Source of the DNA: a bacterium
GTDB lineage: Bacteria; JAJVIF01; JAGGVT01
Assembly (NCBI GenBank): GCA_021157815.1
Contig: JAGGVT010000026.1
Span: 1-5,252, forward strand
Length of the DNA stretch: 5,252 nucleotides
Direction: 5' to 3'
In this document: piece by piece, positions 293-5,252 of the stretch
Layout of the letters: every line of letters begins with the position of its first letter
Numbering within the stretch: the first letter of the stretch is position 1
Notes under the pieces: generated by a model
Seen by the model: only the letters and a program-made list of their open reading frames with translations
Database searches by the model: none
What the model was told of the DNA's origin: nothing
Made by a program: the position numbers and the translations under genes

Positions 293-2506
293 ATGAGACA
301 TGTGACTATTTGTTTATTCACTATGTTTTTGGTGTTAATGGGCTGTTCCGGTGGTTCGAATACTCCTGTATCACCGCAGGGGAATGGAGCGTCTGACACA
401 CTCGACAGCATTCCTATCATTGGAGCGTCGATTTTCGATGACGGCTCATTTGACGCTGTTGGAATGTTTGGCGAGTATGAGCTTACGATCAATCCGGAAG
501 ATTCAACAGCTGAACTGACAGCAAAACGAATCGCGGCAATCGGTGAGGATTACATCGTAAGCGGAGTTAATTTTTTCACCATTGCGCCATGCGCGACTTG
601 CCTGAAAATTAGCGGGATCGCGATTGATATGGATGGCAACGCGGTTTTAACATTCTCAATAAGACATCCATTCCCGGCGGGCAATACAAGCGAACCGCCA
701 TCAGCGGCGAATCGACTCGATCTAGATGTCTTCGACCTTGCGATGGTGATTGTGCCATCCGAAGCGACTGCGACAACCTACAGTATTACTGGCAAAGGCG
801 TTTACACAGGATACTGTATTAATCCTGACGGCTACACAACGGAACTTGCAGATGTGGTTAGCGATACTGCAGCCATGCCGTTTTTCCTTGCAGTTGATGA
901 CAGCGATACCGGAACAAGCACGTTCAACAAATTCGCGATGGGCGAAGAAGACATGACGTTCGATGCCGGATTCGACCTGTCTGCCGGAGTGCTTAGCTTT
1001 GACATGTATCTTACGATGGGATACGGATTCAGCGCAAAGAGACCCGACAGGCTTCAGCCGAAATACTATAATCCTGAATTCAACCGTAAAGCCGCATGGA
1101 AAGTGGTTGTAACTCCACCTGAGGGTGATGACCCGCCTGAAATGGCGAATACATGGAATGACATGAATGGCACAGATCTGTGGCCTGTAACAGTCGAGGT
1201 TTACGACTGGCAGCAGGGGGCAACGGTTTATACAGGAGAACCTCTTGAATTCGGCGATGCTGGTTCAGACAACGTTTTCGCATCCAGTGAAATTGCGAGC
1301 GTTTCTGTTGAAATACCCGGCATGAATTCATCGCTCCAATCAGTAACCATTCCCGACAGTGGAACTGGACATCCACTTGATCCCTGCATCTACACTATTC
1401 CAATTGCAAATCAGAACCTTCTGGCTGAGGGTGAGTATGTTGGACTTGTTAAAGTAACAGATGAGCGCGCTGTTCTTACACCAGCCGATGGTCGTGATTT
1501 CCTTATCGATACGCCTAATGGCATTGAACTTATCAACTACGAAATGCCTGAATATGCGACATATCAGACTTTTACCGCGACAGTTGTTATCGGAAATCAG
1601 GCTCCGATAATCGATTCAGGTGTTGATGGGGACGATACGCCTTTCATTCTTGCAACGGATGAAACCTACACTGTTGTGGCTCATGATCCTGATCTTGATG
1701 TTCTTACCTACTCATGGACTGTTACAGATCTCGCAACAATGGCTGAGGTCATTTCAGATGATCCCGGCTATGGTGATGGGACAATCGATATCGATTTTGC
1801 CACGATTGGTGCTGCTCTTGATGACCAGTACGATATCGACTGCGATGTCAGTGACGGTATTGCCGCTCCGGTACCTGCAACCACGTTGACAGTTACATGT
1901 AACAATGTATTGTTCTTCGATGACATGGAATCAGGCGAGGGTGAATGGCTGACTTCTCACACCGGTCCGAATAATGGCTGGTCTATTGTCGCTGGCGGTA
2001 ACGGTAACTGGTGGCATTCAAACGGTGGTTCAAGTATTTCGACTTCCGGAGGCACCTGCTCGAAACTCTGGACACCGGAAATTACTATTCCAGCAGGAAT
2101 CAGTGAGTGCCATCTTGAAATATATCACAGGGCAACAGGGATATTCAGTTCAAACACGGTCTTTAACGGTCCCGCCCTGGTTACATCCAGTAATGATGGT
2201 GTAACTGCAAACAAGGTTGTTTTTCCAGTGATTTCCGGTCCTCAATATAGCAATTGGACTTATCCATATACTTCTGTTTATCATTTCGGTATGGCGTATG
2301 TATGCAATCCGTTTAACTGCTGGGGAGTTCCGGCATGGACTAGCGTTACTACAACAACTACCAGTGTTGTTGACCTATCTGATCCTTCATACACGAATCT
2401 GATTGGGCAAACACTTAGAATCGGTTTCATTTATGGTCAGGGGCTTTGGTACACCGGCGATTTAACCTGGGGTGTCGATGATGTTAAAATAACTGTTACA
2501 CCGTAG
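293..2506 (+). CDS. Modular lipoprotein: shared N-terminal module, PKD/Ig-like domain, C-terminal jelly-roll-like domain
   Basis: The product is 737 residues and the gene is intact. Residues 1-18 are a lipoprotein signal peptide (Arg2, hydrophobic core, lipobox LMGC with Cys18 as the lipidation site). Ser follows the Cys, so under the E. coli rule it would be sorted to the outer membrane. Residues 19-55 are a flexible tether. Residues 57-432 form a beta-rich module shared with the downstream protein, containing the pair C100-x-x-C103, the block NRLDLDVFDL (140-149) and AWKVVVTPPEGDDPP (268-282). Residues 437-537 resemble a PKD/Ig-like domain, with the typical DPDLDVLTYSW strand (465-475) and a closing VSDG (519-522). 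Residues 538-737 begin FFDDMESGEGEW and end WGVDDVKITV. That pattern resembles MAM/jelly-roll domains found at the ends of secreted bacterial proteases and adhesins; the region is rich in Trp, Gly and Thr and has four Cys. No catalytic motif is visible. A surface binding or structural role is inferred; the true ligand is unknown. Confidence 0.95.
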   Translation: MRHVTICLFTMFLVLMGCSGGSNTPVSPQGNGASDTLDSIPIIGASIFDDGSFDAVGMFGEYELTINPEDSTAELTAKRIAAIGEDYIVSGVNFFTIAPCATCLKISGIAIDMDGNAVLTFSIRHPFPAGNTSEPPSAANRLDLDVFDLAMVIVPSEATATTYSITGKGVYTGYCINPDGYTTELADVVSDTAAMPFFLAVDDSDTGTSTFNKFAMGEEDMTFDAGFDLSAGVLSFDMYLTMGYGFSAKRPDRLQPKYYNPEFNRKAAWKVVVTPPEGDDPPEMANTWNDMNGTDLWPVTVEVYDWQQGATVYTGEPLEFGDAGSDNVFASSEIASVSVEIPGMNSSLQSVTIPDSGTGHPLDPCIYTIPIANQNLLAEGEYVGLVKVTDERAVLTPADGRDFLIDTPNGIELINYEMPEYATYQTFTATVVIGNQAPIIDSGVDGDDTPFILATDETYTVVAHDPDLDVLTYSWTVTDLATMAEVISDDPGYGDGTIDIDFATIGAALDDQYDIDCDVSDGIAAPVPATTLTVTCNNVLFFDDMESGEGEWLTSHTGPNNGWSIVAGGNGNWWHSNGGSSISTSGGTCSKLWTPEITIPAGISECHLEIYHRATGIFSSNTVFNGPALVTSSNDGVTANKVVFPVISGPQYSNWTYPYTSVYHFGMAYVCNPFNCWGVPAWTSVTTTTTSVVDLSDPSYTNLIGQTLRIGFIYGQGLWYTGDLTWGVDDVKITVTP
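461..1588 (+). repeat. Shared module, copy 1 (diverged tandem paralogous segment)
   Basis: This segment encodes residues 57-432 of the first lipoprotein and aligns along its whole length with 2813-3919. By eye, well over half the residues are identical, with few small gaps. Nucleotide identity survives in runs such as CCTGAGGGTGATGACCC (1118-1134) and AAAGTAACAGATGAGCG (1451-1467). Synonymous third positions differ widely, so the duplication is old rather than recent. Two sub-regions can be inferred: one ending near residue 282, and a second Ig-like one with VTVEVYDWQ, VSVEIPGM and GEYVGLVKVTDER. Confidence 0.85.
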
Positions 2507-2544
2507 CTTTTTACACGGTGGTTAATAGTGGAGATTTTATTTTC

Positions 2545-2570
2545 CCCGGTCGATTATGGCCGGGTTTTTT
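2545..2570 (+). terminator. Rho-independent terminator after gene 1
   Basis: CCCGGTC (2545-2551) pairs with GGCCGGG (2558-2564), giving seven base pairs including one T-G wobble, with loop GATTAT. The stem is followed by six T (2565-2570). It lies 38 bases after the TAG of gene 1. The left flank is T-rich rather than A-rich, so it should act on the + strand only. It separates gene 1 from gene 2 and argues against a single strong co-transcript. Confidence 0.88.
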
Positions 2571-2600
2571 GTGAATTGATTTGGTAGCTTGATAATTCTG

Positions 2601-2651
2601 AATGATATAATGGTTCTTGTAATGATTTGGATATTGCCATATAATATCATT
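2601..2651. promoter_or_regulatory. Inverted repeat spanning the gene 2 promoter, possible operator
   Basis: AATGATAT (2601-2608) is the exact reverse complement of ATATCATT (2644-2651). Inside it, ATGG (2610-2613) pairs with CCAT (2637-2640). A second, smaller dyad, GATATT (2630-2635) with AATATC (2643-2648), is centred close to the -10 box. The arms cover both TATAAT hexamers upstream of gene 2, which is where a repressor site would act. The region is AT-rich, which raises the odds of chance dyads. Confidence 0.35.
2617..2645 (+). promoter_or_regulatory. Sigma70-type promoter for gene 2
   Basis: TTGTAA (2617-2622, 4 of 6 matches) is separated by 17 bp from a perfect TATAAT (2640-2645). Transcription would start near 2651-2653, leaving a leader of about 32 bases. 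Another perfect TATAAT lies at 2606-2611, with TTGGTA at 2581-2586 as a weak -35 and a long 19 bp spacer, so a second start is possible. Both lie downstream of the gene 1 terminator, which supports independent expression of gene 2. Confidence 0.55.
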
Positions 2652-2670
2652 ATCCATACAATCCATATTT

Positions 2671-2675
2671 GGAGG
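2671..2675 (+). promoter_or_regulatory. Ribosome binding site setting the start of gene 2
   Basis: GGAGG lies eight bases before the ATG at 2684. The in-frame TTG at 2669 overlaps this site and so is very unlikely to be the start. The ATG gives a signal peptide beginning MRPLLF, parallel to the first gene. Confidence 0.9.
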
Positions 2676-2683
2676 GTTGTTTT

Positions 2684-5041
2684 ATGAGACCTTTATTATT
2701 TATTCTGGCTCTTTTTGTCTTTTCGTTGGTGGGATGTTCATCCAGCTCCAACAATCCCACGACTCCTCAGAGCGATGGAATATCAGTCGCATCAGATATT
2801 GGAAGCGCTCTGGGAATGCTTGGAGCCTATGAACTCAGCATTAATCCTGAGAACAACACGGCTGAATTAACCGCAAAACGAACCAATGCGATTGGTGAAA
2901 GCTATATTGTGAGTGGAATTGGTTTTTTCACGATTTCACCTTGCCCGGATTGTTTTAAAATAAAAGGAATCAGCATGACTCCTGAAGGATTCATTGCTCT
3001 TACTTTTTCAATCCGGCATCCGTTTGACCCGGGCGACACACTCAAGCCGCCAACGGCGATAAATCGCCTTGACCTGGATGTTTTCGACCTCACGCTTGTT
3101 ATTGCTCCAAAAGAAACGATTCCCGAGGCATTTTCACTTGGAAACGCATATGCGGGAATCTGTGTCGATACGGACGGTTACACAACAGAACTTTCCAATC
3201 TGGTTGAGGATACGGCATCTCTGCCGTACTACCTTGTTATCGATGACAGCATCGGTGGTATCAGCACATTTAACAAGTTTAAGATGGGCGAGGAAACTGA
3301 GTTCGATGTAATATTGGATTTATCAGGCAGTACACTTCTATTTGATTTGTATCTCACAATGGGATATGGATTCAGCGCGGTAAAAGCGGACAGGCTTCAT
3401 CCGGCGTATTATAATCCTGAGTTTAACAGAAAATCCGCGTGGAAAGTGGTTGTTACACCTCCTGAGGGTGATGACCCACCCGCACTGGGGAACACATGGC
3501 AGCATGACGACAGCACAACTCCTTTCAGTGTTACAGTTGAAGTTTATGACTGGCAGATTGGCGCGAATGTTGATCCTGCACTTACGAATCCGGACGACAT
3601 TTACGCGGCATCCGGAGTCTCTGCTGTCTCCATGGAGATTCCCGGTATGACCGCTGCATACGCAACTGTGAATACACCTGACAGCGGGACTGGAATGCCG
3701 GATGATCCGCTTGTTTACACAATCTCAATGGCGAATGAAAATCTTCTTGAAGCTGGCGAATACACAGGTCTGATAAAAGTAACAGATGAGCGTTTGCCTC
3801 TTGCGCCGCCTCCGATTGATTCCCGCGATTATCTAATTGACAGCCCTGATGGTGTCGTGCTGGAGAATTATGAGATTCCTGAATACGCGGCATATCAAAT
3901 ATTTACCGCTACTGTTGTTGAGGGAGTGTCGCCGCTTGAGGGATGGCTTTGTTACTCGCATGACCCACAGCATACAGGCGTGGCGGATTGTGTTCTCGAC
4001 CCCGCGGCACTTGAACTGAAATGGGCATTTCCAACCGGTGGCGATATTAAATCCTCACCCGTTATTTCAGCGGGAATAACATATTTCGGAAGCGATGACG
4101 CCAACGTTTACGCGGTTGACCTTGCGACAGGAACAGAGGTTTGGAGTTACACAGCCGATATGGCGGTTTGTGGGACTGCCGCGATTGGTGAGGATGCTAT
4201 CTATATCGGAACTGAGGGCGGTTACCTGTATTCACTGCTGAAATCAGACGGTTCTGAAATCTGGAATTACCAATTCACGTTCACCGGAATGAGCGGCGCG
4301 GATGGTTTGAAGGTGCGAGGAGCGATTCTGGTGGATGGCCGTGTGTATTTCTGTGCAAATAACGGCAGTGTTTATGCTCTTAACGCAACCGATGGTTCGG
4401 AAATATTTGTTGTGCCAACACCACTGCCCTCCAATGGCAATTCACTCCGCACAGTGCCGGCATATTACGAAGCTGAAGACCAATTAATTGTTACTGCTGA
4501 CAGTTACGATGTTATCTGTTTCGATGCCTTTGACGGCACAGAATACTGGCGTAAGTACAATGGTGAGTTCATTGGATGCTCACCAACGCTGGATGGCGAT
4601 TATCTTTACTTTTTTGATGATGAATTCACAAGGAAGTATGAACTTTCCGGTACCGCGTCTCCGACTCTTATTTGGGAGGAGGCGTTGAATCCTCACCCGT
4701 TTGTAACAGCGGGCTCAGGCGCGCTTGATGACGGGCATTATTATACTCTGACTCTCATACCCGGAAAACTGCTCGCAAATGATCGTGATACTGGAACCAT
4801 TGACTGGTTTGCTCCTCCTGAGTTGATTCAGGGATTTTCCAATGCTCCCGCAGTTAGTGGAGGCGTTGTCTATTTCGCATCGACATACGGTGTGTTATAT
4901 GGTTATGACACAGCAACCGGTACGGAAGTTTTCAATTATGATATCGGTGAAATAGTTGACGGGTCATCTGTCGCAATCCATGATGATCGCCTGCTTGTTG
5001 GCTGTTGCGATGGCAGCATGTACTGTTTCGGAGAAGTTTAG
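2684..5041 (+). CDS. Modular lipoprotein: shared N-terminal module fused to a PQQ-like (BamB-type) beta-propeller
   Basis: The product is 785 residues and the gene is intact. Residues 1-18 form a lipoprotein signal peptide with lipobox LVGC and Cys18; Ser at +2 suggests outer-membrane sorting. A Ser/Asn/Pro tether follows. Residues 44-412 are the module shared with the upstream protein, with C87-x-x-C90, NRLDLDVFDL (127-136) and AWKVVVTPPEGDDPP (252-266). From about 418 the protein is a PQQ_2-type propeller. It opens with WLCYSHDPQHTG (420-431), a variant of the W-x-x-[FY]-x-x-D-x-x-x-T-G entry motif of such propellers. Repeats of the form VYxxDxxTGxExW follow near 463-488, 503-529, 551-577, 598-624, 638-666, 683-710 and 726-752. 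A last half-repeat (767-782) has no Trp strand of its own and probably closes on LELKWAF (443-449), giving eight blades. Nothing indicates a PQQ-dependent dehydrogenase; a scaffold or binding role is inferred. Confidence 0.95.
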   Translation: MRPLLFILALFVFSLVGCSSSSNNPTTPQSDGISVASDIGSALGMLGAYELSINPENNTAELTAKRTNAIGESYIVSGIGFFTISPCPDCFKIKGISMTPEGFIALTFSIRHPFDPGDTLKPPTAINRLDLDVFDLTLVIAPKETIPEAFSLGNAYAGICVDTDGYTTELSNLVEDTASLPYYLVIDDSIGGISTFNKFKMGEETEFDVILDLSGSTLLFDLYLTMGYGFSAVKADRLHPAYYNPEFNRKSAWKVVVTPPEGDDPPALGNTWQHDDSTTPFSVTVEVYDWQIGANVDPALTNPDDIYAASGVSAVSMEIPGMTAAYATVNTPDSGTGMPDDPLVYTISMANENLLEAGEYTGLIKVTDERLPLAPPPIDSRDYLIDSPDGVVLENYEIPEYAAYQIFTATVVEGVSPLEGWLCYSHDPQHTGVADCVLDPAALELKWAFPTGGDIKSSPVISAGITYFGSDDANVYAVDLATGTEVWSYTADMAVCGTAAIGEDAIYIGTEGGYLYSLLKSDGSEIWNYQFTFTGMSGADGLKVRGAILVDGRVYFCANNGSVYALNATDGSEIFVVPTPLPSNGNSLRTVPAYYEAEDQLIVTADSYDVICFDAFDGTEYWRKYNGEFIGCSPTLDGDYLYFFDDEFTRKYELSGTASPTLIWEEALNPHPFVTAGSGALDDGHYYTLTLIPGKLLANDRDTGTIDWFAPPELIQGFSNAPAVSGGVVYFASTYGVLYGYDTATGTEVFNYDIGEIVDGSSVAIHDDRLLVGCCDGSMYCFGEV
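2813..3919 (+). repeat. Shared module, copy 2 (diverged tandem paralogous segment)
   Basis: This segment encodes residues 44-412 of the second lipoprotein and is the counterpart of 461-1588. It keeps the blocks GYTTEL, FNKF-x-MGEE, YLTMGYGFSA and YYNPEFNRK, plus the CxxC pair and the third nearby Cys (C160, matching C175 upstream). Identical nucleotide runs include CCTGAGGGTGATGACCC (3461-3477) and AAAGTAACAGATGAGCG (3776-3792). One main length difference lies after the VYDWQ block, where the first copy has several extra residues. Confidence 0.85.
3935..5038 (+). repeat. Tandem beta-propeller blade repeats within gene 2
   Basis: These bases encode residues 418-785, a series of about 45-residue units each holding a VYxx...DxxTGxExWxY core. 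Repeats 1, 2, 3 and 7 are clear. Repeat 4 keeps DGTEYW. Repeats 5 and 6 (638-710) are degenerate, keeping mainly the aromatic and Trp positions. The repetition is visible at protein level and poorly kept in the DNA, so slippage between blades is unlikely to be current. Confidence 0.8.
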
Positions 5042-5147
5042 AGCGTTTACAGTCTGAGATTAATATATTGTTGATTTAAAATCACTGCTGTCCGGTTAAA
5101 TTTGAAGATAAGTAAAAACTGAGAATAATCCACAACGGTAGTAAAAA
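5042..5147. other. AT-rich intergenic stretch after gene 2, no terminator seen
   Basis: I found no GC-rich hairpin followed by a T run here, in contrast to the clear terminator after gene 1. Only a small AT-rich dyad (GATTTAAAATC) is visible, which would not terminate transcription. Gene 2 may end by Rho-dependent termination, or its original downstream sequence may have been displaced if the adjacent IS-like end marks an insertion. Confidence 0.4.
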
Positions 5148-5252
5148 GGGGGCTGTCCCAAAAAGTGAATAAGTACTGTATAAATGAGGGTTTACAGCAT
5201 AGTGTATTGATAACATCAGATTTGAAGCCTGTTGTGGACGTACCCCATGATT
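5148..5252. mobile_element. Probable IS terminus, element continuing past the window
   Basis: GGGGGCTGTCCCAAAAAGTG (5148-5167) has the form of the terminal inverted repeat seen in several bacterial IS families: a G run, CTGTCCC, then an A run. The following 85 bases are open on the + strand in the frame of GTG 5165, ending ...SDLKPVVDVPHD at the edge. The minus strand also has an open frame, so the direction of any transposase cannot be decided. No target duplication can be checked, because the other end is not in the window. The family is not assigned. Confidence 0.5.

Follow-up and report, generated by a model that had tools for sequence, protein, structure and literature searches.

The window, the whole stretch of DNA analysed here, is an entire contig (C199, 5252 bases), one of the 221 contigs of the 3.2-Mb genome G000. 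It carries two adjacent lipoprotein genes on the forward strand, gene 1 and gene 2, whose features are collected in Table 1. Between them lies a terminator-like hairpin with a T run behind it, which disfavours an operon of the two. Together with a pair of overlapping promoter-like sites ahead of gene 2, this hairpin suggests that the genes are on separate transcripts; promoter-like sites numbered 18 across the window versus 10.3 expected. At the contig end (about 5138-5252) we also observed a dispersed repeat of ~110 bases (AAAAAGGGGGCTGTCCCAAAAAG...GGACGTACCCC). This MITE-like or REP-like element has at least 40 copies in the genome with 84-94% identity (40 scored of 118 candidates), and it may be the reason why the contig ends there.

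Table 1 Features of the two lipoprotein genes and of the region between them (window coordinates).
Feature	Position	Strand	Basis or details
Gene 1, lipoprotein, 737 aa	293..2506	+	ATG 293, stop TAG 2504-2506, SD AGGAG at 281
Gene 1 signal peptide and lipobox LMGC-S, Cys18 at 344-346	293..346	+	Sequence; pattern conserved across the family
Gene 1 long module, past the variable linker	416..1588	+	Profile and DNA breakpoint; AlphaFold2 pLDDT 90.6
Gene 1 domain A	about 416-1090	+	Border from model secondary structure and VIA-align ranges
Gene 1 domain B (Ig-like)	about 1091-1585	+	VIA-align match to Ig-like folds; border as for domain A
Gene 1 variable C-terminal unit, without Pfam family; PKD-like then jelly-roll-like by eye alone	1589..2503	+	
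Terminator-like hairpin then T run, intergenic	2545..2564	+	Pattern match only
Two overlapping promoter-like sites, 5' of gene 2	2617..2662	+	Pattern match only
Gene 2, lipoprotein, 785 aa	2684..5041	+	ATG 2684, SD GGAGGG at 2671
Gene 2 signal peptide and lipobox LVGC-S, Cys18 at 2735-2737	2684..2737	+	Sequence
Gene 2 long module	2786..3919	+	Identity to gene 1 module; profile match 2702-3916
Gene 2 variable C-terminal unit, PQQ/BamB-type beta-propeller	3920..5038	+	PQQ_2 E 2e-32

An earlier note on this DNA had claimed that the two adjacent genes share a front part and then continue into unrelated rears. This was borne out: the modules of gene 1 and gene 2 were 57-60% identical over the full module length, whereas their C-termini had no BLAST similarity to each other. 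The note had also let the alignment start just after the lipid tether. Here the shared module stands, but its extent had been drawn too narrowly, as the similarity also takes in the lipobox; a variable linker lies between the lipobox and residue ~45. The clean breakpoint claimed at 1588 in gene 1 was found at the DNA level as well. Specifically, gene 1 matched its two closest paralogues from position 407 or 453 up to 1587 with nothing beyond, and its final matching piece with gene 2 ended at 1588. This DNA breakpoint coincides with the end of the module and with the end of the last strand in the AlphaFold2 model.

For the identity of the module, we searched Pfam, NCBIfam and the PDB sequences and obtained no convincing match (70 modules at E 0.01 for Pfam and NCBIfam), in agreement with the earlier note, which had not recognised it as a named family. 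Narrowly worded literature searches found no description of such a family. The recurrence of the module in the same genome, which had been proposed as a check, was examined by a genome profile search. A single-sequence search of G000 gave 97 matches, and a profile of 70 modules (A1) gave 122, of which ~81 places, as counted by hand, were clear long-type, some of them cut by contig ends; 75 members in the fetched loci reached the module end. The weaker match set proved to be the same module in a shorter version, with ~290 residues compared to ~400 in the long form. Using a profile of this short form (A5), we counted, again by hand, ~54 short-type places in G000, a few of them with in-frame stops. 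The long and short profiles aligned with 99.8% probability (E 1e-29), the signal-peptide region contributing part of the score, and judging by this alignment the two forms are homologous. The family therefore totals ~135 genes in G000, long and short taken together, and the module neither matched a known domain family nor is confined to the window pair. The 95 family ORFs of the fetched loci cover 234,756 bases, or 7.3% of G000, and we estimate that the share comes close to a tenth of the genome once the unfetched short-type genes are added.

Local clusters holding many of the members were seen on the single contigs C98, C56, C86, C35 and C118, with long and short forms mixed on C98 and C56. 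One in-frame stop each was present in the L019-type loci C98:2303 (L009), C154:7432 (L021), C104:13221, C206:8270, C104:10740 and C195:749 of G000, and members of this kind are either pseudogenes or assembly errors.

Outside G000, the family was clear in four of the 385 taxonomically nearest genomes searched, all four of the same class as G000; the limitation to a single class applies to the 385 genomes that were profile-searched, the searched set covering about half of the species in GTDB. The genome G002, which belongs to a different family of the class (4 contigs, 99% complete), gave 147 matches and G001 gave 125, with some genes matching twice, and a single-sequence search of G003 (82% complete) gave 15. 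G108 and G259, both from other classes, gave two marginal matches over ~70 residues (E 3.5e-4 and 6.9e-4) that were taken as chance, and viral contigs gave no relative. In a tree of the long modules, built by FastTree and containing many weak forks, members from G000 and G002 interleave and those of G001 stand on one side of a branch. This branching suggests that the family had probably diversified by the time the lineages separated.

Among the named GTDB genomes, which were searched through a two-peptide prefilter that limits sensitivity, only two loci were recovered, L077 (JAHIRU010000051.1) and L078 (JAHIRU010000001.1), both in one 'Nanoarchaeota' MAG. As they carry family lipoprotein genes, these contigs of a public genome are probably bacterial and misbinned. 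The sample code of this MAG appears in a Fennoscandian groundwater study (PMC8275790).

We then considered the C-terminal units. Grouped by similarity across at least half of both sequences, the C-termini sorted into 36 groups, with one 17-residue remnant counted, so the module does recur elsewhere in the genome with further C-termini, as the earlier note had conjectured. Among the 25 commonest Pfam matches of 74 C-termini (E up to 0.01, some weak) were PKD_4 (n=21), BNR_2 (n=13), PQQ_2 (n=4) and SBBP (n=4); the same search returned beta-helix (n=3), LVIVD (n=2), DUF5122 (n=2), Kelch (n=1) and fn3 (n=1). The Pfam domains found among the C-termini are typical of extracellular proteins, and propellers, PKD arrays and beta-helices occur widely in binding proteins outside the cell and in enzymes that act on polysaccharides. 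The short modules carried TolB-like (PD40), PQQ, SBBP and BNR units and one clostripain-type peptidase. Some C-termini were common to long and short modules, namely a group-3 domain (52% identity), a PQQ propeller (48%), an SBBP propeller (36%) and another unit (39%). Two loci may be singled out. In L058 (6252-7400, reverse strand), a short-module lipoprotein ends in the clostripain-type unit (Peptidase_C11, E 6e-32), an enzyme amid mostly propeller and PKD partners. In L039, two convergent neighbours (754-2787, forward, and 2836-5607, reverse), one with a short and one with a long module, bear PQQ-type C-termini that are 48% identical.

In the window itself, the C-terminus of gene 2 scored 113.2 bits against a Pfam PQQ_2 gathering score of 27.6, and what had been described as an eight-blade propeller stands as a propeller of PQQ/BamB type. 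BamB is likewise a lipoprotein, and the gene 2 C-terminus matches PQQ_2/BamB-type propellers. The identification of gene 2 as BamB was nevertheless rejected, with scores of 77.2 vs 285.2 and 60.2 vs 423 bits at the equivalog cut-offs and a 400-residue module preceding the propeller. The gene 1 C-terminus gave no convincing Pfam or NCBIfam family and, at E 1e-5 over 60 residues, no similarity to other family C-termini of G000; from its sequence, a PKD/Ig part plus a jelly roll is plausible.

Taken together, we propose that these genes form a large 'constant front, variable rear' lipoprotein family in which the module serves as an envelope stalk or platform and the C-terminal units are the working parts, a reading that we consider rather probable. 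Each protein would rely on its own lipoprotein signal peptide for export and receive its lipid on the conserved Cys. The two beta-sandwich-like domains, in long or short form, would then stand on the cell envelope as a stalk or platform, presumably at the outer membrane or the surface. The specific binding or catalysis would fall to the variable C-terminal unit, in many cases a beta-propeller or PKD/Ig array, in some a beta-helix and in one a clostripain-like peptidase. New proteins would have arisen long ago and repeatedly, through the joining of other C-terminal units at the end of the module's last beta-strand, with the module meanwhile held under purifying selection.

Export and lipidation are predicted from the lipoprotein signal peptide and its Cys. 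Cys13 of the alignment was invariant in 70 modules, as was C11 in all 11 short ones, and the members with an intact front had their own signal peptide and lipobox-like Cys. A lipobox pattern search missed 32 members, in which the Cys was at the expected place and the -3 residue or the slicing of the sequence failed the pattern. A search for a sorting tail common to the C-termini was negative, with 35 of 4465 pairs similar. LolA was not detected, a point against this reading. An Omp85 protein was present, which makes an outer membrane likely in this organism.

In the earlier note, the common part was put forward as an anchoring, export or assembly module. The shared module was retained, but the export or assembly role was not supported: each member's own signal peptide and lipobox-like Cys suffice for export and lipidation, and a shared C-terminal tail is missing. 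In this idea the module would be a tag, recognised by a dedicated machine for translocation or assembly at the outer membrane, and the machine would display whichever C-terminal cargo follows. The combination of one module with many unrelated C-termini, the strong constraint at the protein level, the lack of a common C-terminal sorting tail and the presence of the module in each of the class's four genomes searched would all suit such a tag. However, a two-domain module of 400 residues far exceeds known sorting signals, and export and anchoring are already accounted for by the signal peptide and lipobox, so we regard a tag as unlikely. We give similarly little credence to an undescribed class-specific surface-display system, in which one machine would present more than 100 C-terminal domains by reading the constant module.

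The AlphaFold2 model obtained from 145 family sequences (pLDDT 90.6, pTM 0.90) was beta-rich with two domains; a model from 13 sequences was set aside (pLDDT 59). Domain B (model 226-390) resembled Ig-like domains in VIA-align, with Z 8-9 over about 90-100 residues at an rmsd of about 3, which is a middling Z for a common arrangement. With Foldseek, the module model had no match over its full length in the PDB or among viral models. The VIA-align rows fall mainly on domain B and hardly cover domain A, which is thus not callable as a new fold; read from the model strands, domain A may be a beta-sandwich.

Across 70 to 145 modules, the invariant or nearly invariant residues included the PCxxC motif, the His of HPF, an Asp and an Arg. 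In the G002 set, the two Cys were kept in 38 and 40 of 49 modules and were largely lost together, and the His was kept in 49/49. This joint loss, with the His staying, suggests that the PCxxC cysteines form a structural disulphide. Against the stalk reading, the invariance of PCxxC, HPF and Asp may indicate a module that binds or catalyses something in its own right instead of acting as a spacer. In that case the module would be the conserved working part, for example one that binds a common ligand or a cell-wall polymer, and the C-termini would be accessory, which is consistent with the constancy of Cys, His, Asp and Arg and with the purifying selection on the module. We find this doubtful, since the Cys pair is absent from part of the G002 set in the manner that suits a structural disulphide and domain B resembles a generic Ig-like domain. 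The stalk or platform with working C-terminal units remains our preferred reading.

The history of the family bears on how its members arose. Of the module pairs with 70-80% identity, 6/8 had no detectable C-terminal similarity, and the same was true of 43/62 pairs with 60-70% identity. On the module tree, the ten C-terminal types having at least two members required at least 19 changes of type, compared to a minimum possible of 9 and a shuffled-label mean of 27.7; the exact number is uncertain owing to the weak forks. C-terminal type follows the module tree in part, with many swaps besides. Together with the 36 groups and the units common to long and short modules, these comparisons of sequences establish the interchangeability of the C-termini as evolutionary history, and the earlier picture of a common module carrying interchangeable C-terminal domains is confirmed.

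In eight pairs of closest modules, the four-fold sites differed by 43-63%, indicating that the swaps are not recent, and recent gene conversion or exchange was unsupported in these pairs. Codon positions 1 and 2 of the module differed far less than position 3, which points to purifying selection on its protein sequence. The G+C content was equal in module (0.473) and C-terminus (0.471). An active variation system, in which frequent recombination at the module end swaps C-termini, e.g. against phages or for antigenic change, would match the sharp breakpoints, the many swaps, the tandem or clustered copies and the few members with in-frame stops, but it is disfavoured and in our view very improbable, given the divergence at four-fold sites, the intact open frames of most genes and the equal G+C.

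The layout has counterparts elsewhere. In Bacteroidota, surface glycan-binding lipoproteins of the SusE/SusF type and others are likewise known to possess a lipid anchor, an Ig-like beta-sandwich spacer and varied C-terminal binding domains, but our module had no match to the SusE/SusF-type models of Pfam and NCBIfam (70 modules, E 0.01). One family C-terminus gave a sub-threshold SusE match (E 0.0037, 17.9 vs 25.2 bits). Rhs and other polymorphic toxins are also known for a constant front and swapped C-termini. They differ in that the C-termini recognised in this family belong to propeller, PKD, beta-helix and comparable domains and not to toxin domains: no toxin families occurred in the 25 commonest Pfam matches of 74 C-termini or among 40 C-termini scanned singly, the latter giving one sub-threshold T6SS immunity-type match. 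Methanosarcina surface proteins are known to form large paralogous sets of modular build from PKD, beta-propeller and beta-helix domains (cf. PMC2447325), but they are archaeal, and the likeness is one of domain repertoire, with the module compared by library searches only.

This is a new protein family with a layout of anchor, constant front and varied rear that is already known in kind. A module absent from the Pfam, NCBIfam and PDB sequence libraries makes up ~135 genes and 7-10% of one genome, and it is abundant in the other searched genomes of the class. In this family, nature has left a clear record of how domains were exchanged on a constant lipoprotein platform, and the module gives an annotation handle for several hundred proteins whose front half was without a family. 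The family also suggests that this little-sampled lineage invests heavily in exported proteins, which probably bind polymers or surfaces.
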